The translations under genes were made by a program, and so were the position numbers. Below, one piece after another: positions 1 to 61,413 of a stretch of 64,000 bases of DNA. The DNA is taken from contig NC_060060.1 of the NCBI RefSeq assembly GCF_020283565.1, positions 27,032,001 through 27,096,000 of the forward strand, given 5' to 3'. Origin of the DNA: Trifolium pratense (lineage: Eukaryota > Streptophyta > Magnoliopsida > Fabales > Fabaceae). Positions within the stretch are counted from its first letter, which is position 1. Every line of letters starts with the position of its first letter. The notes beneath the pieces are model-generated. The model was not told the origin of the DNA and made no database searches. It worked only from the letters and a program-made list of their open reading frames with translations.

Positions 1-250
1 TGTTTATGAAATGGTTGTGTTATTTATTTGTTTTCCGGGAAGTGCAAGAGAGATATGAAGTATGTTAAGTGCATTTTAAGTCAACATTGACAGGTAAGAT
101 TAGATGATTCATAATTAAAGCGTGGTTGATATTTTATACTTGCTAAGTTTTATCTTCACAAGTAAGTACAAATAATATTCGAGATGAAGGAAGTATATTC
201 CCAAAATGAGTTGACAATTGACATATCATTAGGATTTAGATCATAAGTTC
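1..250 (-). promoter_or_regulatory. Duplicated nuclease-type upstream region (probable promoter of a gene beyond the left edge)
   Basis: This stretch shares order and wording with the region upstream of the nuclease start codon at 6420. Both contain gagatatgaagta (about 51-63 and 6510-6523), then a ttttaagtcaac block, a cgtggt(t/g)gatattttat block, a tatcttcaca block and a gatgaaggaa block. The order and orientation are the same, so a second minus-strand nuclease gene probably starts just left of base 1. The copies have diverged by indels and substitutions. No coding sequence is visible here. Confidence 0.5.
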
Positions 251-1918: not shown

Positions 1919-4900
1919 TTAAATTACATCGACATTGACAATTGTGTCGTTGTCAAAAATACGATTTAGAATTGCAGCCAGCCGAACTCCTCCTTGAGCT
2001 AATCGCAAATTGACTATAGGAAAACGTGACAGAAAGTAATCATCTGCAAAACAAATTTTCATGAAATTTTAGGAATAAAAGAAGAAGGAATAGTCTCAAC
2101 TATAAAATTCTTATAGCTTACCTTTGAGTGTGGAGCCTTCGGGTGCATCTTTATATGCCCATTTACATGCATCTTCGATGCTTTCAGAAGCATATCTAAA
2201 AAATAGACCAAAGTCAATCTTGTGTATTCCAAATATCATAGACAAATAAACTCTATCTATGGTAATGAGATACTCCATCCGTTCCAAATTATAAGAGAAT
2301 AAATAAAAATCACACTTATTAAAAAAAAAAAAAAACATGACAATTTGAAATATGTTTTTGTGAGTTTTTCTTAAAATAAGTTGCATGGGAAGATGTAAAC
2401 AATGCTTATAATTTTTTGTGTCCAAATTACCAAATGAGTGGAGGGGGGCTAAACCTGAATGAAAAAATTGTAAGGACTAAATTGAAATTAAATTGATAGA
2501 AAGTACATTCTATGGTTATTATTATAGACAAAAAAAAAAACTTTTTAGGTTCATTAAAAAACTAATACAATATATCAGTGTATTTTATAAAAACTCAACG
2601 ATAAACTTGTGTAAAATGAAAGCTGGTTTTATCTAAAACAAAGGATTTTACTAATTTTTTTTAAGGGAAACGGAGTATTTTACTTAAGAATAATGCATAA
2701 TAAATGTTATGAAAAGATTTCAAAAATTATAAGCATTGTTAATATTGGAACACAAAAAATTATAATAAATTTGGAACAAATCAATAATAAATTATTCACA
2801 GCTATTGGAACAAATCAATAATAAATTATCCTACTAATAATGGAACATACATGGATGGACATGCGATGTCATTAGAAATGCAGCTCTCCCATTCTTCTAC
2901 TTCTTTAGACCATACTTTCTGGTTACACGAGGAAAAAAAAGGAAGAAAAATATGATTTTTTTTTTTAGATAGTAGAAAAATATGAAACATTCAATGTACA
3001 ATTTCTTGTAATGATGATAAGAGAAATTAATAGTCACCGTCCTAAAATGAGTGATCCAGTTTTACGATTTACACTATTCACATATTTTATTTTGACCATA
3101 TTTTTCTACTAATAAATAAAAATAAATATTAGTATATAAAATATTATTAGATTTGTTTCGATAAATAAAAATAAACTTTTTATAATTTTAATTATTATAT
3201 AATTAAAAATATTAATGATTAAAATTATGTATTAACATACGTGAAATAGTCGACTAAATCACTCATCATAAGACTACGATGCATTGTAATGAATTACCGT
3301 AATATTCTGTTGAAGTGCATCAATAAACTCGTCCATGTCTGAGTCATGGAATCTTTGAACTTCTGTGTCAAGTATGCTAGCATCCCAAATCTTCATATGG
3401 GTATACAATTAGATAATGATTAGTATAAGAGATATATAATAGAGAATTTTAATTAATGATATAACAATTACGATATAATTATTTTTATGATTATCGTGTA
3501 TCTATGTTTTATTTACTTGATGTAGCAAAGAAATGAATTTGACATACATGGTGAAGATTTTGCTTTCTTGTGAACCAATGAACTGTAATTGAATTGCCTC
3601 CTTTGTCTGCGAGAAAGCCACAATGTAGAGGCTGCATATATATCATGATGATTAGCCACTTAATTTCAAAAGTTCGATGAAAATATGTTACATTTAGTGC
3701 TTGTATAGATGCAAACCTGATGAATGTCTCCCAGAAAATGTGAAAGGAAATAAAGGGCTTGTGTAAGGTTATCTGATAAAGTGATGTTACAAGCAAAAGT
3801 TTGTTAATCATAACTCAATACAGGAAAGACATTTCACATCGAGTGCTTAACGGACCTGAATCCCATGCAGTCAAAACATATTGCAGTCACTGCATGTAAA
3901 CCCTTAGATTGAATCTTGATCAAATAAATAATATGCTTTAATAAATTTGGAAGACTGAAATTAACCTACAGTCAAATAGCGACTGCAAGGAATCCATTTC
4001 CGTGCTTAACTGATATATAATGGTGGTACAACTTAAGTTATTTATTTGAAAAGCAGCATTTACATTTAGATTTTGTGTTACTGCCAAAATGGAGTAGCTG
4101 GTTGGTGTAATTTGTAATTGCCGCCACAATACATCGCTCCTTAATTCCTGTTTTCTGATCTTTACAGTCCCCTGAATGTTTAAACAACAGCAGGCCCATC
4201 ACAAAAATAATCATTAATTTAGAAGTTAATTTACAAAATACATATTGAAAATTGTTTAATTGATCAATGTACTTCTATTATAGAAGTTGCCAAAAGATTT
4301 ATTTTTTCCAGTCTTAAATATAAATAAAAAAGATTTTGATCATTTGTGGAAAAATTAAGCAATATAATTTTAACAAACTCATTTAATCAATGACTAAGAT
4401 TAATCAATTTATACTCTAAACTTTATAACACATTTAATGTCATATCATATTTTTATATTAATTTATATCTAAATTATTTTTACCAGTACTCAATAATATA
4501 AATTGGATTTTGTAAAAACATAAAATATAAATTGGATATGTATTTCGTCAATGCGGAAAATATTTAACGGTAGATAAACCTGGTCCCATTTGATATTTCG
4601 AAAGGAGAGTGAGCTAATTGGCGACCCTACCCAAATTTCAATGATAGAAGAGTTAGAAAGAATTGTTACTTAAGCCACTGTGCATACCGCCGCAGTGAGT
4701 CAACTTGACTGAGCTTTAGGTTTGGTATAGTGGTGAGAGGTTTAGGTAATATGTAATAGGTCTTGTATTCGATTTCCAGCTCATTGTAAACAAAAAAAAA
4801 TAAAAAGAATTGTTACTTACTAGTGGTCTTGTAACTGCAAACGTCGGGTGTATTAGCAAAGTGCAAAGCAGACGACCATGGATATATAAACCTCACAGAG

Positions 4901-6420
4901 TAATCAGTCAATTTAGTCCCTAAACTATCACTCTTTCACCAATTCAGTCCCTAAACTATTAAAACCAACTAAAAGGTCCCTAAACTATTTTTCATCCATC
5001 AATTAGGTCCCTAAACTATTTTCCATCCATCAATTTAGTCCTCCGTTATCTTTTCCGTTAACTGTTCTTTAAAACCCTAAAATCCAAAAGCTACTTTTAC
5101 GCTTATATCTCTCTTCTCGATCAACTCTCTCAACTCCATTAATTTAGTCCTCCATCACCAACTCTTTTTTCTTCAACCCCCTTCAATTGCATCTTCTTAT
5201 CTCTCTCTTCTCGATCAACTCTCTCAAATCATCTCAATCTAAAAACCCTAGCGCCACCTATACGCTTCAATTCCGGTTGTCGTCGTTGTTTTAAGGTACG
5301 TTTTTCACTGTTTATGGTTTATGGTTTATGGTTTATGTAATGAAGATTATGGTTTATGGTTTAAATTATGGTTAAGTTTGTTTTTGGGTTTTTGTTGATT
5401 TAGCAGTAATGTTTCATTTGGTTTAGCAGTAATGAATTTGTGTTGTTACTAGGTAGTGAACGAATTTGTGTTGTTACTAGGTAGTGAACGAGAGAAAGGA
5501 TGATTTAGCAATAATGAATTATGTTAAAAATGAATTTGATTTAAATGGTTTAGAGACTATTTGTTTTAGCAGTAATTTGATTTAGCAGTATGATTTAGCA
5601 GTAATGATTTAGCAGTGTTGTTACTATTTTGTTGTTTTTTAAGATAGTTTAGGGACTAAATTGAAGTATTTTTTATAGTTTAGGGACTACTAACAGTCAC
5701 TTAACGGAAAAGTTAACCGAGGGACTAAATTGAAGGATGTGAATATAGTTTAGGGACCTTTTAGTTGATTTTAATAGTTTAGGGACTAAAATGAAGGATG
5801 TGAATATAATTTAGGGACCTTTTAGTTGGTTTTAATAGTTTAGGGACTAAATTGAAGGATGTGAATATAGTTTAGGGACCTTTTAGTTGGTTTTAATAGT
5901 TTAGGGACTAAGTTGGTGAGAGAGTGATAGTTTAGGGACTAAATTGACTGATTACTCAAACCTCACATGATCTGCCCATGAACACTTGCTCGATAAATCA
6001 TTGTTTGCAGATTCTGGCAACAATTTTTTTACAGCCTTAGCAGCTGCATCACTTAGCCGAGCCTATAAAAAAGCGAAAGCAAAATTAGTACATAGATCAG
6101 GTGGTCATTCAATCAAGATCAGACAGTCTAAATTTTAAATTTAAATTTGGTATTTGGAATTATACAATTAGAACTAAAATCTTCATTTTTTAGACTTCTA
6201 ATTAAGATCAGATGACCGCTGATGCTGAATGCATGAACGCGAGAGCCCTGAATTAATGAATTGAAATTCAAATTTTTGAAAGACAACAAGCTAAAGGCAG
6301 GTTACTGACCTGAGCAATCTTACAAACAATGACATGTCCATCATCTCCCCACCCTTTGGTATTTTGAACCAAAAAAAGGAATGAAACTATGGTCACTAGC
6401 AAAATTTTGTAGCAACCCAT
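1919..6420 (-). CDS. ENDO2: S1/P1-type zinc endonuclease (ENDO2-like bifunctional nuclease), exon 2 split by a transposon
   Basis: Exons on the minus strand: 6420-6310, 6062-5962, 4891-4821, 4171-4064, 3772-3717, 3631-3548, 3390-3298, 2918-2851, 2195-2122 and 2043-1919. Joined they give 296 residues, the usual plant S1/P1 length, and every junction is GT..AG. Residues 1-23 look like a signal peptide; the mature protein would start at the family's zinc-binding Trp (WGDDGH, W24/H29). The other zinc ligands are present: D68 in SWAD, H81 in LHFANT, H142/D146/H152 in SHFLGDIHQPLH, and H176/D180 in LHHIWD. The family cleaves single-stranded RNA and DNA in the secretory pathway or vacuole, often in senescence. 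The break between 5962 and 4891 is a 1,060-bp Mutator-like insertion plus its target duplication, not an ordinary gap. Unless it is spliced out, translation stops three codons into the junction, after about 73 residues. Family assignment is firm; functionality is open. Confidence 0.85.
2269..2677. mobile_element. Stowaway/mariner-like MITE remnant in nuclease intron
   Basis: The left end tactccatccgttccaaatta and right end (reverse complement tactccgtttccc) resemble the terminal repeats of plant Stowaway-type MITEs. It lies between the exons ending at 2851 and starting at 2195. The boundaries are weak and there may be a nested insertion. Confidence 0.35.
4700..4803 (+). mobile_element. tRNA-derived SINE-like fragment in nuclease intron
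   Basis: A box-A-like stretch (ttggtatagtggtgagagg) is followed about 30 bases later by a box-B-like stretch (tcttgtattcgatttcc). The fragment ends in an A-rich tail at about 4792-4805. It is antisense to the nuclease gene. It is too degenerate to be a functional tRNA. Confidence 0.4.
4888..5967. mobile_element. Non-autonomous Mutator-like element inserted in nuclease exon 2
   Basis: The element is 4898-5957. It begins gagtaatcagtcaatttag and ends with the exact complement. It is flanked by a perfect 10-bp direct repeat, aaacctcaca, at 4888-4897 and 5958-5967. Subterminal arrays repeat tttagtccctaaactatt on the left and its complement on the right. The centre (about 5080-5300) contains ctctcttctcgatcaactctctca twice and then a 5'UTR-like aaaaccctag stretch running into a possible splice donor (aaggtacg), which may be a captured gene leader. 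No transposase is visible. On the gene strand the duplication is tgtgaggttt, containing AG|GT. Confidence 0.88.
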
Positions 6421-32670: not shown

Positions 32671-32771
32671 ACCGATATCGATTTATACATATCCATTAGA
32701 ATTATCAAAAATTGGATGGATTTTCAAAAGAAATTGGATGTGGCACTCTATAAAAAAAGTTTACAATCTCT

Positions 32772-34514
32772 ATTAAAACCTTTTCATATTTCATATAATA
32801 GAGTTACTCTAATAATAAATAATAAACAATAATAATATATTAAAAAAAAACTAACACAATTTATTGTTGTTGAATTGAGACAAAAATGAATTGCAAGCAA
32901 TGAAAGGTGGAACGATGCATCATGTTATTGTTTTATTAATTGCATTGCAATATATTATTAAAATATATATTGTATGTTACAATTCCCTATTAATGCAATT
33001 GAAAACAAAGAATTCTTGGAGACACTAATATTGAATATGTAAATTTAGCTAATTATCAAACACAAGCTCTATATAAAGTTAACCCAAAAGCTAATTATCA
33101 CCACCATATTGAATATGTAAATTTACATTGAAGTCTAGCTTCTATGTTTTAACAAAATTTTAATTTATCTATCTCATGGCAAAAACTCTATGGTTTCTTT
33201 GTCTGACATCTCCATGAGAAAAAGTTATGCATCTTCACCTTCCATATGTTAAAGTTACACATTATAGTCTCTTGAATTGATTTAAAAGCTATCGTGTGCA
33301 TATATATAGTTACATCATAAGTATATTGGTTTTTGTCCTTGGTAGGTGATGGTGTCTAACCTCTTAGAATATCACGTATGTCTACATGTGATTGATTAAG
33401 AAATTGATATACATATATGTGATAGTTGCCTATTAATATGTTTGTAAATTGGAATTTTTCTACTACTCTGAGTTTAGAACATCTCTAATAATTTTTTATA
33501 TTTCTTTTTTAGGTTGGATATTTTTTTAAATATCAACCGATGTTTTGTTCGATGATTAATTAAACTTTGAGTTGAATCGATTAATATGAATATGACTATT
33601 TTTTCATGTGAAGGAGGAGAACAGGATAAAACATACTTCTATTTTTGCTTACGTTGCATCCTTGCTCCTTATAAAGCCTATGAAATGACACCTCATGTAA
33701 GGATGTGTATTTAACTCTAATGGGAGTTTGTAAACCATCATTTTTTTTATTGATATAATGTTTGTAATTAGACAACTTTTCTTTTTCATTTATTATTTTA
33801 TTAGTCTAATGTTTTAGCTTATTTGTTTCTTATTTTCTTTTTCATTTATTATTTTATATAAGGTAGAAGATTTGTATAAAAAATTGTTGATTAATAGGAA
33901 TATAATTATTTTTTTTCATGTGAATAAGTTGAAGAGGATAAAAGAGACTTCTATTTATTGATTTTGAAGTGCCTTAAAATTTATATAGATCGAGGGTATA
34001 TTGATGTTGGAGGCATTCAATTAAAAGAGGACAATCCAAATAATTTAGAAATATAAATATGTGTCTCATTTTTAAATATTATATTGTCTACAATGTGTAG
34101 GTGATCTACTTGATCTCGATCAAGAGAAATATAGAAACAAAAACAAAGTAGAAATTAAAATAAGTTTTTTTTTTTGTAGTTGACACTCAAGTCATGCGGT
34201 TCTTATAATTGTAATACATGCAAGAAGTATATTGATTCAACTTGACTTAGAGGTTGTCCAAATATATAATCTTCATGCATTTATCGTATAACATTTGCCT
34301 AATCCTGGATGGTTCAATATGAATATATATGAATTTTAATAGACGGTTCTATTTTAATCTACGCATGTCATCTTATTCTTACAACCATAAAATGAATCGA
34401 TGAAAAGAATTGTGCTAAATACTTTTTCCTCCCACTTAGAATTGTACTAAAAGCTTTCTAAATTAAATTAAAAAAAGACAAAAATTATTAAATACAAATT
34501 GTTGATGCTCATTT
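32772..34514 (+). repeat. 1.74-kb direct duplication, copy 1
   Basis: Runs from attaaaaccttttcatattt to gttgatgctcattt and recurs at 35211-36941 with almost no differences (for example one poly-T length change near 34165/36595). The ends are not TG..CA and there is no LTR-adjacent primer site, so it is not an LTR pair. No protein is recognised inside. Confidence 0.9.
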
Positions 34515-34773: not shown

Positions 34774-35210
34774 TTTTCTTATAATTTTGGTTGGCCAATA
34801 CAATTAAGACACGTGTCAAAAATATTCCATGTCAGCAGGTTTTTGGTCAAAATAGTCAAGGGGGACCAAGAAATACAAAAGGGGGCAAACGTGGGGGGCC
34901 AAAATCGCTCATTTGAAACTTGGGGGGCAAAAATCGCACAATTATGAAACGTGGGGGGCCAAAAGTGCAATTTAGCCTATATATAAACCTTAAATACTTT
35001 TTGTTGCCAATATATAAGTTTGGATGATGATTTCATATATTTGAATTTAGGTTCAGTTATTTGGCTCAGGTAAAGAAAGTTTATTTTGCATGTCTCCCGA
35101 GAGGTCACTTGGTTGAGGAGTTAATCTTCAACCTAGAGGAACTTGGTTCGAGACCCGACACCTGAAAAAGAAAGTTTATTTTAGAATAAAACATTTTCAT
35201 ATTAAAACCT
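34774..35210. other. Spacer between the duplicated blocks
   Basis: Contains three degenerate repeats of a (g/c)ggggggccaaaa(t/a)cgc phrase at about 34860-34975, reminiscent of subterminal repeats of a TIR element. A SINE-like head follows at about 35093-35165 (ggttcgagacccgac). No gene. Confidence 0.45.
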
Positions 35211-36941
35211 TTTCATATTTCATATAATAGAGTTACTCTAATAATAAATAATAAACAATAATAATATATTAAAAAAAAACTAACACAATTTATTGTTGTT
35301 GAATTGAGACAAAAATGAATTGCAAGCAATGAAAGGTGGAACGATGCATCATGTTATTGTTTTATTAATTGCATTGCAATATATTATTAAAATATATATT
35401 GTATGTTACAATTCCCTATTAATGCAATTGAAAACAAAGAATTCTTGGAGACACTAATATTGAATATGTAAATTTAGCTAATTATCAAACACAAGCTCTA
35501 TATAAAGTTAACCCAAAAGCTAATTATCACCACCATATTGAATATGTAAATTTACATTGAAGTCTAGCTTCTATGTTTTAACAAAATTTTAATTTATCTA
35601 TCTCATGGCAAAAACTCTATGGTTTCTTTGTCTGACATCTCCATGAGAAAAAGTTATGCATCTTCACCTTCCATATGTTAAAGTTACACATTATAGTCTC
35701 TTGAATTGATTTAAAAGCTATCGTGTGCATATATATAGTTACATCATAAGTATATTGGTTTTTGTCCTTGGTAGGTGATGGTGTCTAACCTCTTAGAATA
35801 TCACGTATGTCTACATGTGATTGATTAAGAAATTGATATACATATATGTGATAGTTGCCTATTAATATGTTTGTAAATTGGAATTTTTCTACTACTCTGA
35901 GTTTAGAACATCTCTAATAATTTTTTATATTTCTTTTTTAGGTTGGATATTTTTTTAAATATCAACCGATGTTTTGTTCGATGATTAATTAAACTTTGAG
36001 TTGAATCGATTAATATGAATATGACTATTTTTTCATGTGAAGGAGGAGAACAGGATAAAACATACTTCTATTTTTGCTTACGTTGCATCCTTGCTCCTTA
36101 TAAAGCCTATGAAATGACACCTCATGTAAGGATGTGTATTTAACTCTAATGGGAGTTTGTAAACCATCATTTTTTTTATTGATATAATGTTTGTAATTAG
36201 ACAACTTTTCTTTTTCATTTATTATTTTATTAGTCTAATGTTTTAGCTTATTTGTTTCTTATTTTCTTTTTCATTTATTATTTTATATAAGGTAGAAGAT
36301 TTGTATAAAAAATTGTTGATTAATAGGAATATAATTATTTTTTTTCATGTGAATAAGTTGAAGAGGATAAAAGAGACTTCTATTTATTGATTTTGAAGTG
36401 CCTTAAAATTTATATAGATCGAGGGTATATTGATGTTGGAGGCATTCAATTAAAAGAGGACAATCCAAATAATTTAGAAATATAAATATGTGTCTCATTT
36501 TTAAATATTATATTGTCTACAATGTGTAGGTGATCTACTTGATCTCGATCAAGAGAAATATAGAAACAAAAACAAAGTAGAAATTAAAATAAGTTTTTTT
36601 TTGTAGTTGACACTCAAGTCATGCGGTTCTTATAATTGTAATACATGCAAGAAGTATATTGATTCAACTTGACTTAGAGGTTGTCCAAATATATAATCTT
36701 CATGCATTTATCGTATAACATTTGCCTAATCCTGGATGGTTCAATATGAATATATATGAATTTTAATAGACGGTTCTATTTTAATCTACGCATGTCATCT
36801 TATTCTTACAACCATAAAATGAATCGATGAAAAGAATTGTGCTAAATACTTTTTCCTCCCACTTAGAATTGTACTAAAAGCTTTCTAAATTAAATTAAAA
36901 AAAGACAAAAATTATTAAATACAAATTGTTGATGCTCATTT
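35211..36941 (+). repeat. 1.74-kb direct duplication, copy 2
   Basis: Near-identical to 32772-34514. It diverges abruptly at both ends (left neighbour acattttcat, right neighbour gtcaaaataaa). Confidence 0.9.
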
Positions 36942-38255: not shown

Positions 38256-38344
38256 GAGAGAAATTAGTACAAGTAAACCAACAGTACTTGCAACGCCTAG
38301 TACCCCACACTAAATATTTCACAATAAAATTTATGCCCTAAAAA

Positions 38345-46267: not shown

Positions 46268-49200
46268 ATGTTTCACCCATTTTCATTTCGTTGTTCCAAC
46301 CATGCTTCTCCGACGCCGTTTCGTTCCCTATTCCTTCTCAATACTACGTCGTTTCATCTCGCCGGTCAATCTCTCACTTTTCCATTTTCCCGCCGGCAGT
46401 TAAATCCACCGGCACTCCGGTCAGTTCCCCCAGTGAGAGCTGTTGCCTCCTCCTCTTCACCACTCTTCGATATCAGCGGAGGCAAAGGGTAGGTACATGT
46501 AATAATTGCTCCTTAAAACCCTTGTTTATGCTTCATTGTTAACGGTTGTTAAATTTTCTAATGTTGAAATTGGGAACTTCAATTTAGCACTTCTCTCAAA
46601 TCATTATTATCGTTTTAGAATATCAACCGTTGTACTTATTATTTTTCAATCATAATAATCCTGTATAGTAAACCATCAAACTAATTGTAACGGATAAATT
46701 AGATTCTAGGGACGAAACCGATAGAATCAAGTCTCAAAGTAGGAATTCTAACGAATTGAATAGAATTCGATACAAATAAGATTATACAAACATAAATGAG
46801 AGAGTTTTGAGAGAAGAAGATAATTGTTCATTCATTCATTGATTTTCAAAGTGAGGCACAATGCCTTTAAATACAACCCTAAAGGATAAAAATGTCAAAT
46901 GACATAAAATAAACTATTATTTAAAATAAACTATTAATTGATACTTAATTCCTGTCACACTAGTCTCTGACGTTGTAGGACACTCTCAAATCGGTCGATT
47001 ATGAATATATTTAAAATTTTGAATTTAAAAATAAGGGGATGAATACTATTTAGGCCTATAGTATTTACTAGTCTTTTCGTATCCTTGTTGGGGTTGATTG
47101 TCAAGTCTCACATTGTTGGAGAAATCCTACATTGCTTAGTGTGGTGAAGCACGAGTAGACTAAGAGTATATATTGGACCTAGGTTCTTTGTTTTAGATGC
47201 ATCATCTGGCTTAGTTTAAATATTTGTTTTGGAGAGTGTGGGTGTATTGAGGGTCGTGTGATGGTTGAGAGAAGTCTATGTGTTGTAAATTTTTTCACAT
47301 AGTAACAATTCTCTGGTTGTCGAGTTTCTACGTTATATTCTTGTGTTGTGATTGTGCTTATATCCCCTCCCTCCATCTCATGTTACAACCGTTTACGGTT
47401 TTAACACATGAATTAAGTAATGCAATTCATATCATAAATTTAGAAAAATATTGTATACTTTTCTACATTGCCATTTGCAATAATATAAAAAGAGAAGTTG
47501 ATCATGGTTAAAGAAGAAAAACACTTAAATTCCATTTGCTTATGTGCATAGAAAAGTTTGACCAGTTTGGGTATAGGATTGTTTATTTTTACTATGTTGT
47601 CAATAGCATGCTATAGTGGAATAGTGTAGCAGTGGTAGGATTCGGCACGATGCCATCTCCCCGTAAGCCGCTTTCAGCAATAACGGTTGTAGCGGCCATG
47701 AAATGTGGGAATCCCACTATCCGCTCTACCACTATAGCAATCTTTACTAACAAGTTGTGCCTAATGGAGATTAGGAGTTTGGGGTGGAAGAAGAAGAGTT
47801 TTAATTAAGTGATGAACAAGATAATATTGATGTGGTGGAACTTAGAATTGAAGATGAGGCATATGCTGATGTGAAACATGCTTTTGATTACTTTTAGAAC
47901 TTATTTTGATGTGAAATGACAAATTTGATTATAGCTATTAAGTATGGTTGTCCCTTTAATTTACGTTTACTTTGTACATTGTTTTTTAGTCTTTGCTTAA
48001 ATGGCCATCTCACTATCCGCTGTAGCATTTTTAGGGTTCGGCGCTACGCACGACTATCTGGGATTTACAACATACAGTAGTTTCTAGCTTGACAGCATTG
48101 TAGTGTACATGTTTTATCGATATTATATTTTTATTGAAATCATGAAAATGGAAATGTAAATTTTTCATTCTTTGTAATAATATCACAGGCAGGTTATACT
48201 CATTTGCCTTTATCATTTTGCAGCATGAGTGGGTTCTTCGATGTCGAACTAAAAGTTCGTGATTATGAGTTGGATCAGTTTGGTGTGGTCAACAATTCAG
48301 TTTATGCTGGTTATTGTCAACATGGTGAGACCTCATGAAACATGTAGATTTTCAGTACCACAAACTGTTACTTTTATATGAATTTGATGTTGAGATCACT
48401 TTTCACATAAGATGTGTGTTAATTTTGAAATGTTCACATGTCTAAATGAAACAAGTTTGTCATGGCATAATGTGGACAGCACTGGTGTGGTAATTTGATG
48501 ACTTTAGGATCAAAATATTGTTTACTGTCGGTATCTTTAATCCCTTTCTCTAGGGAAAAAAATATATTGTTTGATTTATAGTCTTGCGCAAATGACTTGA
48601 GTTTAGACTTGCGGTCCATATTTTAAAACCACATGTGTCAAAAAAATCCATTTGGTAAGCAACAAAACCAGAGCAGCACAAGCATAAGATACAATTTTTA
48701 TAATCTTTTATTCATGGCTAAACAAAGATATAGACTCAATAATCATATCAAGAAGGAATGTAATTGGTCTAAACTTTGATTCAAGGGAGTTATTGACATT
48801 GCACAGCTATTTATGGTGTGGTGCTTGAGGTAATGTCTAAACCTTAGGATTTTGAAGGGTCACACCAAACTTTCTGTTCAAATTTGGATGCAAACAGTTA
48901 TTTACACTGCTAGTTTCTTTTTGTTCAATGAGTGGTTTACATATGGTATGTTTCATATCTTGGCTATGCTTTTAAATGTTGCCCCCTTTTTCATGATCTA
49001 TTTTTTGGTGTATTCAATCCTTTTTAATTTAGTGATCAGGGGGTGACCCATAATAGGACCCTGAATTGAAATAGGGTCAGTTGATTACATACAACTATTT
49101 GATGTATCATTCTGAATTTTGTAGCAATTTAAGAGTACTCCAATTTTTCCATTCATAAACTGATCATTTATATCTAAATATCTTCATAAGGTCGTCATGA

Positions 49201-49749
49201 ATTCTTGGAAAGCATTGGTATTAATTGTGATACTGTAGCTCGAAGTGGTGAAGCATTGGCCTTGTCAGAACTATCCTTCAAATACCTTGCACCTCTAAGA
49301 GTAAGTCACGCTAATTTCATTGGTCATTTGTATTTTTTAGCCATCATCTCCTGATACAAGGTAGTAACTCTAAAAGGATATGACGATTATATAGCATAGA
49401 TCTGTTTTGCTTGCCAATGTTTATGTTTGTACTGATTTTTAAAAACTTTCAACCAGAGTGGAGACAAATTTGTCGTAAAGGTTAAGATTTCTGGCTCCTC
49501 AGCTGCTCGTATACACTTTGATCACTTCATCTATAAACTACCAAACCTAGAGGTGTATTTCCATCACTCTCTGTTTACATTTTTACCGTCACTTAACATA
49601 TTTGTTGATATTTTTGGTAAATTTGATGACAGCCTATTTTGGAAGCTAGGGCCACAGCAGTGTGGCTTGACAAAAACTATCGTCCTATTCGAATTCCGGC
49701 AGATATTAGGTCTAAATTTGTTAAACTTATTCGTAGTGAGGACTCATAA
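46268..49749 (+). CDS. ALT: Acyl-lipid thioesterase (ALT/MKS2-type hotdog), copy B, canonical
   Basis: Exons: 46268-46488, 48224-48324, 49191-49300, 49457-49552 and 49633-49749. They join to 214 residues. The N-terminal ~70 residues are rich in Ser, Arg and Pro with few acids, as in a plastid transit peptide. The 4HBT/hotdog domain reads [21 protein letters not shown] (probable catalytic D91), [53 protein letters not shown] and [14 protein letters not shown], and it ends SEDS. This agrees with ALT/MKS2-type proteins, which hydrolyse medium-chain acyl-ACP or beta-ketoacyl-ACP in plastids and can feed methylketone or fatty-acid-derived volatiles. It is a same-strand tandem duplicate of the gene at 38345, with shared intron positions. 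All family motifs are kept, so this is probably the active copy. Confidence 0.92.
47586..48062. repeat. Repeat with tagcgg/ccgctgtag words in ALT copy B intron 1
   Basis: The left part (about 47600-47745) and the right part (about 48003-48050) share cactatccgct and ggttcggc(a/g)c words typical of a TIR-type legume repeat. The ends could not be fixed and no target duplication was found. Confidence 0.3.
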
Positions 49750-53520: not shown

Positions 53521-53762
53521 TAAATGAATATTTTTCCGATATATTAGATCATTAAATTATTTAGGTAAATGAATATTTTTCCAAAAAAAATCATTTTTTA
53601 TCATTTAAAATATTATAATAACTAAATACTATTTATCAAAATTATAAAAAAAAAAAAATTATCACTCATAATAGTCAATATTGATTTTTTTTATGAAAAA
53701 ATGTAAAAACGTTTGTGTATGGCTTATAAAACATTGAAATTGTGTCTTTTCTTATGAAACTA

Positions 53763-56700
53763 CTAGCATGACACCCGTGCGTCCGCACGGGAGTCGCGGC
53801 GTTGCCGCTCCTCATTTGGTAAGATGAAATTTATTGGAAAGTAGATTAAAATATAAAAGAAAAATAGAAGGGATATAATATTTGGTAAAAAAAATAGAAA
53901 AAAAACAATGGTAAAATTATCACAAAAAAACTTTAGTATAACATAGTATAATCAATGTTCAAAGATTATGGAATTTATTTAACAACTTTATAGTATAGTT
54001 TATCAAAATTGTAGGTAAAGCATGCCGTACGTGTACCAAGGTACTTATCAGGAAATTAATATGAAAGAGCATATTTATAAATTAAGCAAAATCAAAATCA
54101 ACCACCATGACCATTCTTATCACCACAAACTACCCAAACTCAAAATTGGAGAGACTAAAAGCATATATTAAATTTAATTATTTCTCCTAATTTTCTAAAA
54201 CAAAAGACTAAATACTCAATTTAATTCCTAAAAAAAATTAACAATTTATAAAGGAAAACTATTTTCTTATAGTTGAATACTGTATTGTACCAAAACTTTT
54301 GAGGTCTTGGTCATTGTCGTTATTAGAAATAAAACTTTTGAGGTCTTGGTCATTGTCGTTATTAGAAATATATCTTGTACTCCTATCTACTAATCCATTT
54401 ATGTGATTCTAATTAAGTCTACGATAATGGGAGGTTACGCCGAAAGATGTTCTTATAAAATCTTGGAAAAGTATGTACCGAAACAAAATCAATCTTTGAA
54501 AAGTTTATATTGCTTTTGCTACTTTAGGTCTCCATAGAAATATAAATATAGATAATGTAAAAATTGTGAAAAAAAATAGGCTACCTTATTAATATATTAG
54601 TAAAAATATAGGTCTTGTAAAAATCACCAAAAAACTTATGTCAATATATTAATATATGAGTATAAATATAGTCACGTAAAAATTATTAAAAAATAGGCAA
54701 TCGTATGTGAAAATATAGGTCTCACAACAATCATCAAAATAATTAGGTCACCGTATTAAATATGAGTATAATCTGTATATTTGTAAAATAAAAAAAAATA
54801 GACAACTTAATTTTTATTTTATTTTTGTTACAAACAACTTAATTAATATATAATTAAAAGTATAAGTCCCATAGAAACCACACCAACAAAAAAGTTTCCA
54901 TATTAATATATGAGTTATAAATATAACCCTATAATATATACACAAAATACCCATGAAAGTTTATCTAATGTACCCCCTCAAATAGCCCTCTTTATCCAAA
55001 ACGATATAAGACATGGCTGAGGTTTTTGTTTCTCTTTTATAATAAAGTTTTGTTTCAAAAAAAATAAATAAATATAGGTCCCGCAAATGTTATAAAAGAT
55101 GGACAAACTTATTAATATGAGTAAAACACATAGGTTCCCATAATCCCATGTACCCAAAAAAAAAAACACATATGTTCCCAGAAATCACACAAAAGATTAG
55201 GTTCTCGTACTAATATATGATTATAAATATAGCTCTAAAAAAAATAGTAAAAATTTGAAAACTAAAATTTATTTGGAAAAGTGCAAATAATAGGTATTTA
55301 TTGGTGAATTAAGATGATGGTATAATAGGAAGATAATGTGCAAAAATTCACTTTCTTAATTTAGTGTTATCATTCTAACTGAACACTTATAAAAAATCAA
55401 AAGGAGTAAAATATTAAAAAGGAATTAACCATCTCAAGAAAAATTTTAAAATATTGAAATTATTTACTAACTTTCAAATATGACACAAAATACCCATGAA
55501 AGTGATGATGTGTCAAATTATTAAGTAGGGGATTTTCACATGTATCTAGTTTTCTTAGGTCCTTTGTAATATATATATATATATGAGTATGAATATAGTC
55601 CCGTAAAAATTATTAAAAAATAGGCGATCTTATTAATATGTTAGTGAAAATATATGTCTCACAACAATCATCAAAATAATTAGGTCACCGTATTAAATAT
55701 GAGTATAAAGTTAGGTTCTACATAAATTATTAAAGATCAGGAAACCTTATTAATAAGAGGATAAATATAGGTCACTCACAATTCACACAAAAGATTATGT
55801 CTCCGTATAAATATATGAGTATAACTCGTATAATTATTAAAAAAAAAACAACTTTATTAATATAGGAGCAAAAATATAAGGCCCGGAGATATAACAAAAA
55901 AAAGAGGTTCCCGTATTAATATGAATATAGCCCGTAAAATTATTAAAAAAAATAGACAACATAATATATTAGTAAAAACACAAGTTCTTTGAGAATCACA
56001 AAAAATAGTAGATTTTCGTATTAATATATGAGTATAAATATAGGTCTCACAAAAAATAGTAAAAAACTGACAACTTCATTAATAAGAGTAAAAACATAGG
56101 TCTCGCATAAATCCCACAAAAAATTAGATCCTTGTATTAATATATGAGTATAAATATATGTCATGTAGAAATTATGAAGAATGAACAACTTTATTAATAT
56201 ATGATTAAAAATATAAATCTCGTAGAAATCAGAAAAACAATAGGTTCTCCCATTAATATCTGAGTATAAATTTAGGTCCAACATAAATTATTTAAAATCA
56301 GGAAACCACCTCAAATATGACACAAAATACCCTTGAAAATAATTATGTGTCAAAAAATGAAAAAAGAGGAAAATTGGTGATTTCATATGTATCTTCTTTT
56401 TTCCTTAAAAAAAAAAGTATCTTCTTTACATATATTGTAGATGTGTCATTATATTCATTCATCGGTCATAATTATTAATTTTATGTGGATTTCTATATGT
56501 TATTTATTTTATTTTTTTGTAAGGTAAAGAAATGTTTTAAATTGAGTAATTAAAACAAAATTAATACAGCCTATATAGTAGATTGTATAGGATATATCGA
56601 TGCCCAGCTAATTGATTTTTGTTTAATAAAAAAATTGAATTTATATAAAGTGAGGTAATTTGAATTTGGGTTACATACAAAAAATTGGAGTTTTAGATAA

Positions 56701-57265
56701 AAAGAAAAAAATTGTGGGAGAAGTAACAAATAAAGTGGTGTTTTGTGGTTACAATTGGACATTTAACTCATATTGGTTCCAAAAATTTACAATATATGAA
56801 AAGAAAATACATATGAAATCACCCTTGAAAATGATTATGTCTCAAAAAATGAAAAAGGGGCAAATTGGTAATTTCATATGCATATTCTTTTCATATATTG
56901 TAGATATAAAGTGAGGTAATTTAATTTGAATTTGGGTTACATACAAAAAATTGGATTTTTAGATAAAAAGAAAAAAATCATGGGAGAAGTAACAAATAAA
57001 GTGGAGTTTTGTGGTTACAATTGGGCATTTAACTCATATTGGTTCCAAAAATATAACAAATTAATTCATATGGCTTAGTGGTAAATATAATAAAAAATGT
57101 AACTAAAAGATTAAGTGCTCGAATCCTGCTTAGAAATGTTTTAGCATTTTTCTACTAATTTTTTTAATAAAGACACAAAATACCCTTGAAAATGATTATG
57201 TGTCAAAAAATGAAGTAGGGGAAAATTAGTGATTTCATATGTATCTTCTTTTTATATATTGTAGA
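53763..57265 (-). mobile_element. Helitron copy 1 (non-autonomous), 3.5 kb
   Basis: On the minus strand the 3' end carries the hairpin cccgtgcg-ga-cgcacggg and then gtgtcatgCTAG followed by T (53762). The 5' end reads TCTACAATATATAAAAAGAA at 57265. There is no Rep/helicase frame. The interior is AT-rich with repeated tattaatatatgagtataaatatag words and a duplicated block of about 40 bp near 54286-54368. Further 5'-end-like sequences occur at 56441 and 56904, each with A before TC. The base before the outer TC is T rather than A. Near-identical to the copy at 57442-61413. Confidence 0.8.
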
Positions 57266-57441
57266 AAATTGGGCATTTAATTTAATGCTTTAGTTTTGTC
57301 AAAAAAAAAAATTTAATGCTTTAGATTTGCCCCAAAATTAAAGTTAATGCCCTACGTAAAGACAAACTAAGTTTTCGGATTTAGATCCTCTTGAGCTTTT
57401 TCTCTCGTATCGTCTATTCTGCTCTAAATTTACATTATTCA
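57266..57441. other. 176-bp spacer between the two Helitrons
   Basis: Unique AT-rich sequence that is not part of the repeated unit. It may be the original host sequence or MULE interior between two insertions. Confidence 0.55.
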
Positions 57442-59235
57442 CTAGCATGACACCCGTGCGTCCACACGGGAGTCGCGGCGTTGCCGCTCCTCATTTGGTA
57501 AGATGAAATTTATTGGAAAGTAGATTAAAATATAAAAGAAAAATAGAAGGGATATACTATTTGGTAAAAAAAATAGAAAAAGAACAATGGTAAAATTATC
57601 ACAAAAAACTTTAGTATAACATAGTATAATCAATGTTCAAAGATTATGGAATTTATTTAACAACTTTATAGTATAGTTTATCAAAATTGTAGGTAAAGCA
57701 TGCCGTACGTGTACCAAGGTACTTATCTGGAAATTAATATGAAAGAGCATATTTATAAATTAAGCAAAATCAAAATCAACCACCATGACCATTCTTATCA
57801 CCACAAACTACCCAAACTCAAAATTGGAGAGACTAAAAGCATATATTAAATTTAATTATTTCTCCTAATTTTCTAAAACAAAAGACTAAATACTCAATTT
57901 AATTCCTAAAAAAAATTAACAATTTATAAAGGAAAACTATTTTCTTATAGTTGAATACTGTATTGTACCAAAACTTTTGAGGTCTTGGTCATTGTCGTTA
58001 TTAGAAATAAAACTTTTGAGGTCTTGGTCATTGTCGTTATTAGAAATATATCTTGTATCTACTAATCCATTTATGTGATTCTAATTAAGTCTACGATAAT
58101 GGGAGGTTACGCCGAAAGATGTTCTTATAAAATCTTGGAAAAGTATGTACCGAAACAAAATCAATCTTTGAAAAGTTTATATTGCTTTTGCTACTTTAGG
58201 TCTCCATAGGAATATAAATATAGATAATGTAAAAATTGTGAAAAAAAATAGGCTACCTTATTAATATATTAGTAAAAACATAGGTCTTGTAAAAATCACC
58301 AAAAAACTTATGTCAATGTATTAATATATGAGTATAAATATAGTCACGTAAAAATTATTAAAAAATAGGCAATCGTATGTGAAAATATAGGTCTCACAAC
58401 AATCATCAAAATAATTAGGTCACCGTATTAAATATGAGTATAATCTGTATATTTGTAAAATAAAAAAAATAGACAACTTAATTTTTATTTTATTTTTGTT
58501 ACAAACAACTTAATTAATATATAATTAAAAGTATAAGTCCCGTAGAAACCACACCAACAAAAAAGTTTCCATATTAATATATGAGTATAAATATAACCCT
58601 ATAATATATACACAAAATACCCATGAAAGTTTATCTAATGTACCCCCTCAAATAGCCCTCTTTATCCAAAACGATATAAGACATGGCTGAGGTTTTTGTT
58701 TCTCTTTTATAATAAAGTTTTTGTTTCAAAAAAAATAAATAAATATAGGTCCCGCAAATGTTATAAAAGATGGACAAACTTATTAATATGAGTAAAACAC
58801 ATAGGTTCCCATAATCCCATGTACCAAAAAAAAAACACATATGTTCCCAGAAATCACACAAAAGATTAGGTTCTCGTACTAATATATGATTATAAATATA
58901 CCTCTAAAAAAAATAGTAAAAATTTGAAAACTAAAATTTATTTGGAAAAGTGCAAATAATAGGTATTTATTGGTGAATTAAGATGAGGGTATAATAGGAA
59001 GATAATGTGCAAAAATTCACTTTCTTAATTTAGTGTTATCATTCTAACTGAACACTTATAAAAAATCAAAAGGAGTAAAATATTAAAAAGGAATTAACCA
59101 TCTCAAGAAAAATTTTAAAATATTGAAATTATTTACTAACTTTCAAATATGACACAAAATACCCATGAAAGTGATGATGTGTCAAATTATTAAGTAGGGG
59201 ATTTTCACATGTATCTAGTTTTCTTAGGTCCTTTG

Positions 59236-59276
<41 letters not shown>

Positions 59277-61413
59277 TATGAATATAGTCCCGTAAAAATT
59301 ATTAATAAATAGGCGATCTTATTAATATGTTAGTGAAAATATATGTCTCACAACAATCATCAAAATAATTAGGTCACCGTATTAAATATGAGTATAAAGT
59401 TAGGTTCTACATAAATTATTAAAGATCAGGAAACCTTATTAATAAGAGGATAAATATAGGTCACTCACAATTCACACAAAAGATTATGTCTCCGTATAAA
59501 TATATGAGTATAACTCGTATAATTATAAAAAAAAACAACTTTATTAATATAGGAGCAAAAATATAAGGCCCGGAGATATAACAAAAAAAAGAGGTTCCCG
59601 TATTAATATGAATATAGCCCGTAAAATTATTAAAAAAAATAGACAACATAATATATTAGTAAAAACACAAGTTCTTTGAGAATCACAAAAAACAGTAGAT
59701 TTTCGTATTAATATATGAGTATAAATATAGGTCTCACAAAAAATAGTAAAAAACTGACAACTTCATTAATAAGAGTAAAAACATAGGTCTCGCATAAATC
59801 CCACAAAAAATTAGATCCTTGTATTAATATATGAGTATAAATATATGTCATGTAGAAATTATGAAGAATGAACAACTTTATTAATATATGATTAAAAATA
59901 TAAATCTCGTAGAAATCAGAAAAATAATAGGTTCTCCCATTAATATCTGAGTATAAATTTAGGTCCAACATAAATTATTTAAAATCAGGAAACCACCTCA
60001 AATATGACACAAAATACCCTTGAAAATAATTATGTGCCAAAAAATGAAAAAAGAGGAAAATTTGTGATTTCATATGTATCTTCTTTTTTCCTTAAAAAAA
60101 AAAAGTATCTTCTTTTCATATATTGTAGATGTGTCATTATATTCATTCATCGGTCATAATTATTAATTTTATGTGAATTTCTATATGTTATTTATTTTAT
60201 TTTTTTGTAAGGTAAAGAAATGTTTTAAATTGAGTAATTAAAACAAAATTAATACAGCCTATATAGTAGATTGTATAGGATATATCGATGCCCAGCTAAT
60301 TGATTTTTGTTTAATAAAAAAATTGAATTTATATAAAGTGAGGTAATTTGAATTTGGGTTACATACAAAAAATTGGAGTTTTAGATAAAAAGAAAAAAAT
60401 TGTGGGAGAAGTAACAAATAAAGTGGTGTTTTGTGGTTACAATTGGACATTTAACTCATATTGGTTCCAAAAATTTACAATATATGAAAAGAAAATACAT
60501 ATGAAATCACCCTTGAAAATGATTATGTCTCAAAAAATGAAAAAGGGGCAAATTGGTGATTTCATATGCATATTCTTTTCATATATTGTAGATATAAAGT
60601 GAGGTAATTTAATTTGAATTTGGGTTACATACAAAAAATTGGATTTTTAGATAAAAAGAAAAAAATCGTGGGAGAAGTAACAAATAAAGTGGAGTTTTGT
60701 GGTTACAATTGGGCATTTAACTCATATTGGTTCCAAAAATATAACAAATTAATTCATATGGCTTAGTGGTAAATATAATAAAAAATGTAACTAAAAGGTT
60801 AAGTGCTCGAATCCTGCTTAGAAATGTTTTAGCATTTTTCTACTAATTTTTTTAATAAAGACACAAAATACCCTTGAAAATGATTATGTGTCAAAAAATG
60901 AAGTAGGGGCAAATTAGTGATTTCATAAATTAATTCATATGGCTTAGTGGTAAATATAATAAAAAATGTAACTAAAAGGTTAAGTGCTCGAATCCTGCTT
61001 AGAAATATTTTAGCATTTTTCTACTAATTTTTTTAATAAAGACACAAAATACCCTTGAAAATGATTATGTGTCAAAAAATGAAGTAGGGGCAAATTAGTG
61101 ATTTCATATGTATCTTCTTTTTATATATTGTAGATAAAGACACAAAATACCCTTGAAAATGATTATGTGTCAAAAAATGAAGTAGGGGCAAATTAGTGAT
61201 TTCATAAATTAATTCATATGGCTTAGTGGTAAATATAATAAAAAATGTAACTAAAAGGTTAAGTGCTCGAATCCTGCTTAGAAATGTTTTAGCATTTTTC
61301 TACTAATTTTTTTAATAAAGACACAAAATACCCTTGAAAATGATTATGTGTCAAAAAATGAAGTAGGGGCAAATTAGTGATTTCATATGTATCTTCTTTT
61401 TATATATTGTAGA
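57442..61413 (-). mobile_element. Helitron copy 2 (non-autonomous), 4.0 kb
   Basis: The 3' end is at 57442-57445 (CTAG, with T after it on the minus strand) behind the hairpin cccgtgtg-ga-cgcacggg. The 5' end is TCTACAATATATAAAAAGAA at 61413, with A before it. It differs from copy 1 at scattered bases and by a longer AT run at about 59238-59272. Extra repeats of the 5' part give blocks starting gacacaaaatacccttg at 60859, 61040, 61138 and 61319. Additional 5'-end-like TCTAC sites are at 60129, 60592 and 61134. A SINE-like head (tggcttagtggtaaat ... gctcgaatcc) is carried within these repeats. Confidence 0.82.

Follow-up and report, generated by a model that had tools for sequence, protein, structure and literature searches.

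A Mutator-like element within a coding exon of a red clover nuclease as a candidate newborn intron

Can a transposon that has entered a coding exon bring about its own exact removal from the messenger, so that the host gene goes on as before? This question is raised by a 64-kb stretch of the red clover (Trifolium pratense) genome (64,000 nucleotides (nt) in full, hereafter the window), where a 1,060-bp Mutator-like element splits exon 2 of a minus-strand S1/P1 nuclease gene (6420-1919) that is otherwise intact. How new introns originate has long been debated. Where the target duplication of an insertion provides donor and acceptor alike, one gains a view of what may be the first step, a fresh transposon spliced enough to keep the gene alive. 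We lean, without great confidence, towards the reading that the element is a newborn transposon-derived intron, the insertion allele being spliced exactly, at least partly and to a useful degree.

The insertion and the reading frame

When the eight ordinary GT-AG introns and the candidate intron were removed, a coding sequence of 891 nt was obtained, which encodes 296 amino acids without a stop or a frameshift, in agreement with the earlier claim that removal of 5961-4892 keeps the frame. The Pfam family S1-P1_nuclease (PF02265) matched residues 24-286 of the joined protein over the entire profile (1-258 of 258, E = 8.6e-86), and the closest solved structures were those of plant Endonuclease 2. 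All nine expected zinc-ligand residues were present in the joined product, and no decay was found in the nuclease reading frame, which is open throughout; both points had been made in the original prediction. Judged by the full-length domain and by the expected ligand residues, the gene is an S1/P1 nuclease of the endonuclease 2-like type.

Mutator-like elements have a target duplication of 9-11 bp and long terminal inverted repeats, and their autonomous members encode a MuDR-type transposase. The extent of the predicted 1,060-bp element was confirmed by its inverted arms of 94 nt, which are 96% complementary (4/94 mismatches), and by the 10-bp duplication that encloses them (AAACCTCACA, or TGTGAGGTTT on the gene strand), whose two copies are 100% identical and read TGTGAG/GTTT, as had been claimed (slash, position of the cut). 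Both the duplication size and the long repeats are those of the class, and there is little room for a transposase, as a single stop-free stretch of at least 62 codons was found inside the element (65 codons at 5143-5337, plus strand), so that the element is at most non-autonomous. Because of the 94-nt inverted ends, the 10-bp duplication, the subterminal array and the little coding capacity, we assign it to the non-autonomous Mutator-like elements. The duplication sequence had no further occurrence on either strand of the window. A search of the window with the 23-nt element end, allowing up to 3 mismatches, returned 2 matches, which are the element's own two ends (shuffle mean 0.00), and the exact 23-nt end gave 0 matches in viral contigs and 0 in prokaryote contigs. 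Further copies of the element numbered 0 in 201,000 sampled bases (21 stretches), which is a small part of this assembly (the 7 largest contigs seen together span 406 Mb).

If each copy of the duplication is cut between its AG and its GT, 5961-4892 is lost and the original codons are restored without any change, the junction falling after coding nt 212. Two features expected of a precise transposon-born intron, AGGT in the duplication and exact restoration of the frame, are found here. If the element is read through instead, the protein runs ...SWADHVRFE and ends at TAA, the element's second codon, in line with the stop within three codons that the original prediction had given. The 891-nt coding sequence holds a single AGGT, and 7/882 coding 10-mers (0.8%) contain it, all of them from this one site, compared with a mean of 1.2% in codon-shuffled sequences. 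Since precise GT-AG removal of this type requires AGGT in the duplication, a random hit would offer it about once in a hundred insertions, a figure that is not a plain odds ratio because the case was picked out for this feature. In a protein alignment, eight related proteins, one of them from T. repens, had no extra residues at the insertion point.

From these features the following course of events may be proposed. A non-autonomous Mutator-like element would have entered exon 2 of the nuclease at its sole AGGT, and the 10-bp target duplication would have placed a donor, GAG/GTTTGA, before the element and an acceptor, TGTGAG/G, after it. The spliceosome would then excise the element with one copy of the duplication in at least some transcripts, leaving mRNA and protein unchanged, and the remaining transcripts, if splicing is leaky as we suppose, would stop at the element's second codon.

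Gene models and splice signals

The sequence itself does not demonstrate that the element is spliced, and the evidence closest to RNA comes from public gene models. A protein search with the nuclease returned 733 proteins at E <=0.001 of 1,693 candidates, the best 120 of which were listed; among the matches listed was a T. repens protein (P0001) at 94% to the window nuclease. A second match, P0006, is the NCBI entry 'endonuclease 2-like isoform X2 [Trifolium pratense]', with 231 amino acids. All of its residues (231/231) are those of the first 231 of the exactly joined product, and it spans the insertion site uninterrupted. P0006 lies on a contig of 74,482,258 bp, and one contig of the window's assembly (C2) has this same length. 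The agreement over eight digits indicates that P0006 was modelled on the window's assembly, so that the element has apparently been annotated as an intron in a public NCBI model of this red clover assembly. The early end of P0006 could be explained by use of another acceptor within the intron that follows 2851 (the AG at 2257 or the one at 2633, both with a stop after them), and an isoform with such an early stop is unlikely to be a guess from homology. According to a passage in an account of the NCBI pipeline for buffalo, each model of a gene with multiple variants had to have full support from a single long alignment or from the RNA-seq reads of a single sample (PMC5737279). By this rule and P0006, red clover probably has transcripts in which the two parts of exon 2 are joined.

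A further T. pratense protein, P0002 (260 amino acids, on a contig of 77,580,243 bp), covers the full exon 2 and differs from the window protein by 2 amino acids besides the missing exon 3. It skips the nuclease exon 4171-4064 in frame.

The splice signals were scored with a base-frequency matrix, and only ranks within the nuclease gene are to be trusted. The candidate donor scored 7.2, within the range of the gene's 8 ordinary introns (5.0-10.7), and ranked first among the 16 donors listed for 6058-5301, with the runner-up, at 5966, scoring 5.6. It resembles the donor of ordinary intron 4, CAG/GTTTGC. The branch-site-like motifs that the original prediction had noted upstream of the AG were located at the positions given in Table 1. 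The A+T content of the candidate intron (67%) is at the lower end of that of the ordinary introns (67-79%). In the predicted fold the inverted repeats pair with each other into a long stem that has the two copies of the duplication at its base (mean unpaired probability 0.34 and 0.61), and such a stem, if formed, could bring donor and acceptor together; the fold is an equilibrium prediction that ignores co-transcriptional binding.

Several observations weigh against exact splicing. The candidate acceptor is weak, with a score of 2.3 compared with 2.0-9.0 in the ordinary introns (n = 8), and it has G at -3, which a passage in PMC2375911 gives as the least favoured base at this position in Arabidopsis. 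In a scan of 5650-4823, 13 of the 15 element AGs listed with a score above 2 exceeded that of the candidate, the strongest being 7.2 at 5077 and 6.5 at 4951; eight of these higher-scoring acceptors were translated, and each meets a stop within 16 codons. The U content of the candidate intron is 29%, as against 35-45% in the ordinary introns. Moreover, the branch region (4906-4931) is predicted to be fully paired within the inverted-repeat stem, its mean unpaired probability rounding to 0.00 compared with 0.33-0.63 in the ordinary introns. The gene models carry doubts of their own. The mRNA of an element-free allele, when aligned to the window's assembly, would yield the same apparent intron, and this is the main confound; isoform X1 was not among the matches listed, and a second, element-free copy of the nuclease may lie on the same chromosome.

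The claim of a newborn intron therefore stands in part. The anatomy of the insertion and the contiguous NCBI model speak for it, while an element-free allele explains the model too, the acceptor is weak and the branch region is paired. We infer that the splice sites of the duplication are used in RNA of the insertion allele, and we expect this splicing to be leaky, not clean.

Alternatives to exact splicing

We considered four other explanations, which partly overlap with the favoured one and with each other, so that the probabilities we attach to them need not add up to one. The strongest, though we think it rather unlikely, is a segregating knockout, that is, a young polymorphic null allele which is not usefully spliced and for which the NCBI intron is spurious. 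Element-free mRNA would leave a gap of 1,070 nt on the assembly, and the aligner would settle on the GT-AG inside the duplication. Since the mRNA of an element-free allele has identical letters, P0006 is expected under exact splicing and under an element-free allele alike. This explanation agrees with the immediate stop on read-through, with the weak acceptor and the predicted sequestration of the branch region, and with the perfect 10/10 duplication, which fits a young event. The RefSeq assembly of red clover is HEN17-A07 (GCF_020283565, 413.6 Mb, as given in a passage of PMC13103476), and this genome is called highly heterozygous in a passage of PMC9650271; the 2-residue difference of P0002 indicates that other alleles exist. 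On the other side, a null insertion at random would meet an AGGT 10-mer in only the 7/882 cases given above, though the case was picked for that, and a truncated clover protein was not found. When the databases were searched with the 73-amino-acid read-through product (E up to 1e-15), the 1 match among 4 candidates was an E. coli record (P0121), and the finding of no truncated clover nuclease with this query is weak evidence. P0121 is a 375-nt contig that encodes a legume-like S1/P1 nuclease and is probably plant contamination.

Because element-free alleles give the same junction, an unphased search for the junction cannot separate splicing from a null allele. For the plant from which the HEN17-A07 assembly was made, a passage of PMC9650271 names a public set of long RNA reads, SRR15433788. 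There is a more general trap here, as a segregating insertion at AGGT can mimic a perfect intron in RNA-based annotation, and for this reason counts of recent intron gain need phased reads.

It is improbable that splicing of the element at cryptic sites predominates, with acceptors at 5077, 4951, 4920 or 4835 and with most transcripts altered or stopped, although such splicing may coexist with some exact splicing and the odds of the two overlap. The higher-scoring acceptors inside the element argue for it; use of 4951 or 4920 gives ADHVRD followed by a stop, and 4835 (score 5.2) is in frame and loses the stretch with H81. However, P0006 and P0002, T. pratense models among the matches listed, show the exact join, and no truncated product was found in the length range searched; the in-frame 4835 product was not searched for.

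Still less probable is an element-free twin on the same chromosome, annotated by NCBI, with the copy in the window as a broken duplicate, an explanation that overlaps with the knockout. By eye, window positions 1-100 look like the promoter region of this nuclease gene, so that a related gene may begin outside the window and related copies may adjoin. Such a twin is opposed by the identity of P0006 at all 231 residues and by the detection of a single nuclease locus, with no further one, in the 64-kb window. Finally, the idea that a transposon merely sits inside an ordinary intron of long standing can be dismissed, as the element ends and the duplication fill the candidate intron to the base with no leftover intron sequence, and nothing was found in its favour.

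Known systems and neighbouring features

The favoured reading, a newborn intron, has relatives among DNA transposons of plants. Giroux et al. (1994) reportedly described maize Ds as an intron, so that there too a plant gene would have gained an intron from a DNA transposon; Ds is a hAT element, whereas the clover element is Mutator-like. Insertions of maize Mu1 in Adh1 are said to cause aberrant splicing and polyadenylation, likewise a Mutator element altering the splicing of its host, and in the clover case exact removal is possible.

The original prediction had appealed to a rule that target duplications with AG/GT can create precise introns, and this is a published mechanism: in the legend of Figure 1b of PMC3443670, a duplication with AGGT supplies donor and acceptor and leaves the coding sequence unchanged. 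Table 1 of that paper gives 35 such events in Oryza, Drosophila, Oikopleura and Zea, on indirect evidence and with none demonstrated in vivo. As in those events, the clover duplication holds AGGT and the coding sequence is unchanged after removal; unlike them, as far as that table and legend go, the clover case involves a Mutator-like element, a 10-bp duplication and a legume, and the evidence for its splicing is a gene model and not phased RNA. We therefore regard it as a candidate for the known AGGT mechanism in which the element class and the host are unusual. In the literature searched on plant intron birth and on spliced plant Mutator-like elements, no report of the clover case was found, and a search by the nuclease gene name in red clover likewise found none.

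Passages of PMC9860276 describe introners, families with many copies in genes, some of which carry inverted repeats and owe one of their splice sites, or both, to the target duplication; in a survey of 3,325 genomes, evidence for introners in land plants is reported to be lacking. The clover element is known here as one copy. We hold it to be a long shot that its family repeatedly enters coding exons at AGGT and, with the aid of the stem, is spliced exactly; such a family would resemble introners and would belong to land plants, a group for which that survey, in the passage cited, reports none.

Table 1. Coordinates in the window of the nuclease exons, the element and the candidate intron
Feature	Position	Strand	Basis
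Nuclease exon 1	6310..6420	-	gene-structure reconstruction
Nuclease exon 2, 5' part	5962..6062	-	gene-structure reconstruction
Target duplication copy 1 (TGTGAG/GTTT), candidate donor at 5961	5958..5967	-	repeat search
Candidate newborn intron, 1,070 nt, phase 2	4892..5961	-	exact frame restoration; contiguous NCBI model P0006
Non-autonomous Mutator-like element, 1,060 bp	4898..5957	-	inverted arms with a 10-bp duplication around them
Terminal inverted repeat, gene 5' side	5864..5957	-	94 nt
Subterminal array, 3 copies, 70-nt match, 61-bp spacing, 96-100% identity	5720..5911	-	repeat search
Terminal inverted repeat, gene 3' side	4898..4991	-	94 nt
Branch-site-like stretch (GACTAAAT, TTGAC, CTGAT)	4903..4918	-	motif match only; TTGAC at -20, CTGAT at -16
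Target duplication copy 2, candidate acceptor AG 4893-4892	4888..4897	-	repeat search
Nuclease exon 2, 3' part	4821..4891	-	gene-structure reconstruction
Later nuclease exons	4171-4064, 3772-3717, 3631-3548, 3390-3298, 2918-2851, 2195-2122, 2043-1919	-	gene-structure reconstruction

Intron 2 of the nuclease contains an insertion resembling a short interspersed element (4670-4812, plus-strand orientation), with a poly-A tail and tRNA-like boxes recognized by eye; it is flanked on both sides by AAGTAACAATTCTTT (gene strand) and adjoins the intron 2 donor. Just downstream of the nuclease lies an inverted-repeat element (1041-1459), 77% self-complementary over its length. Elsewhere in the window, an acyl-ACP thioesterase gene (46268-49749, plus strand) matches T. 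repens P0122 at 95%, and a second stretch resembling exon 1 is found near 38342. Two direct repeats were also observed, one of 1,744 bp (32771-34514 and 35200-36941), with copies 99.9% identical and 0.7 kb apart, and a duplication of about 3.5 kb (53762-57239 and 57441-60927), with copies 98.4% identical.

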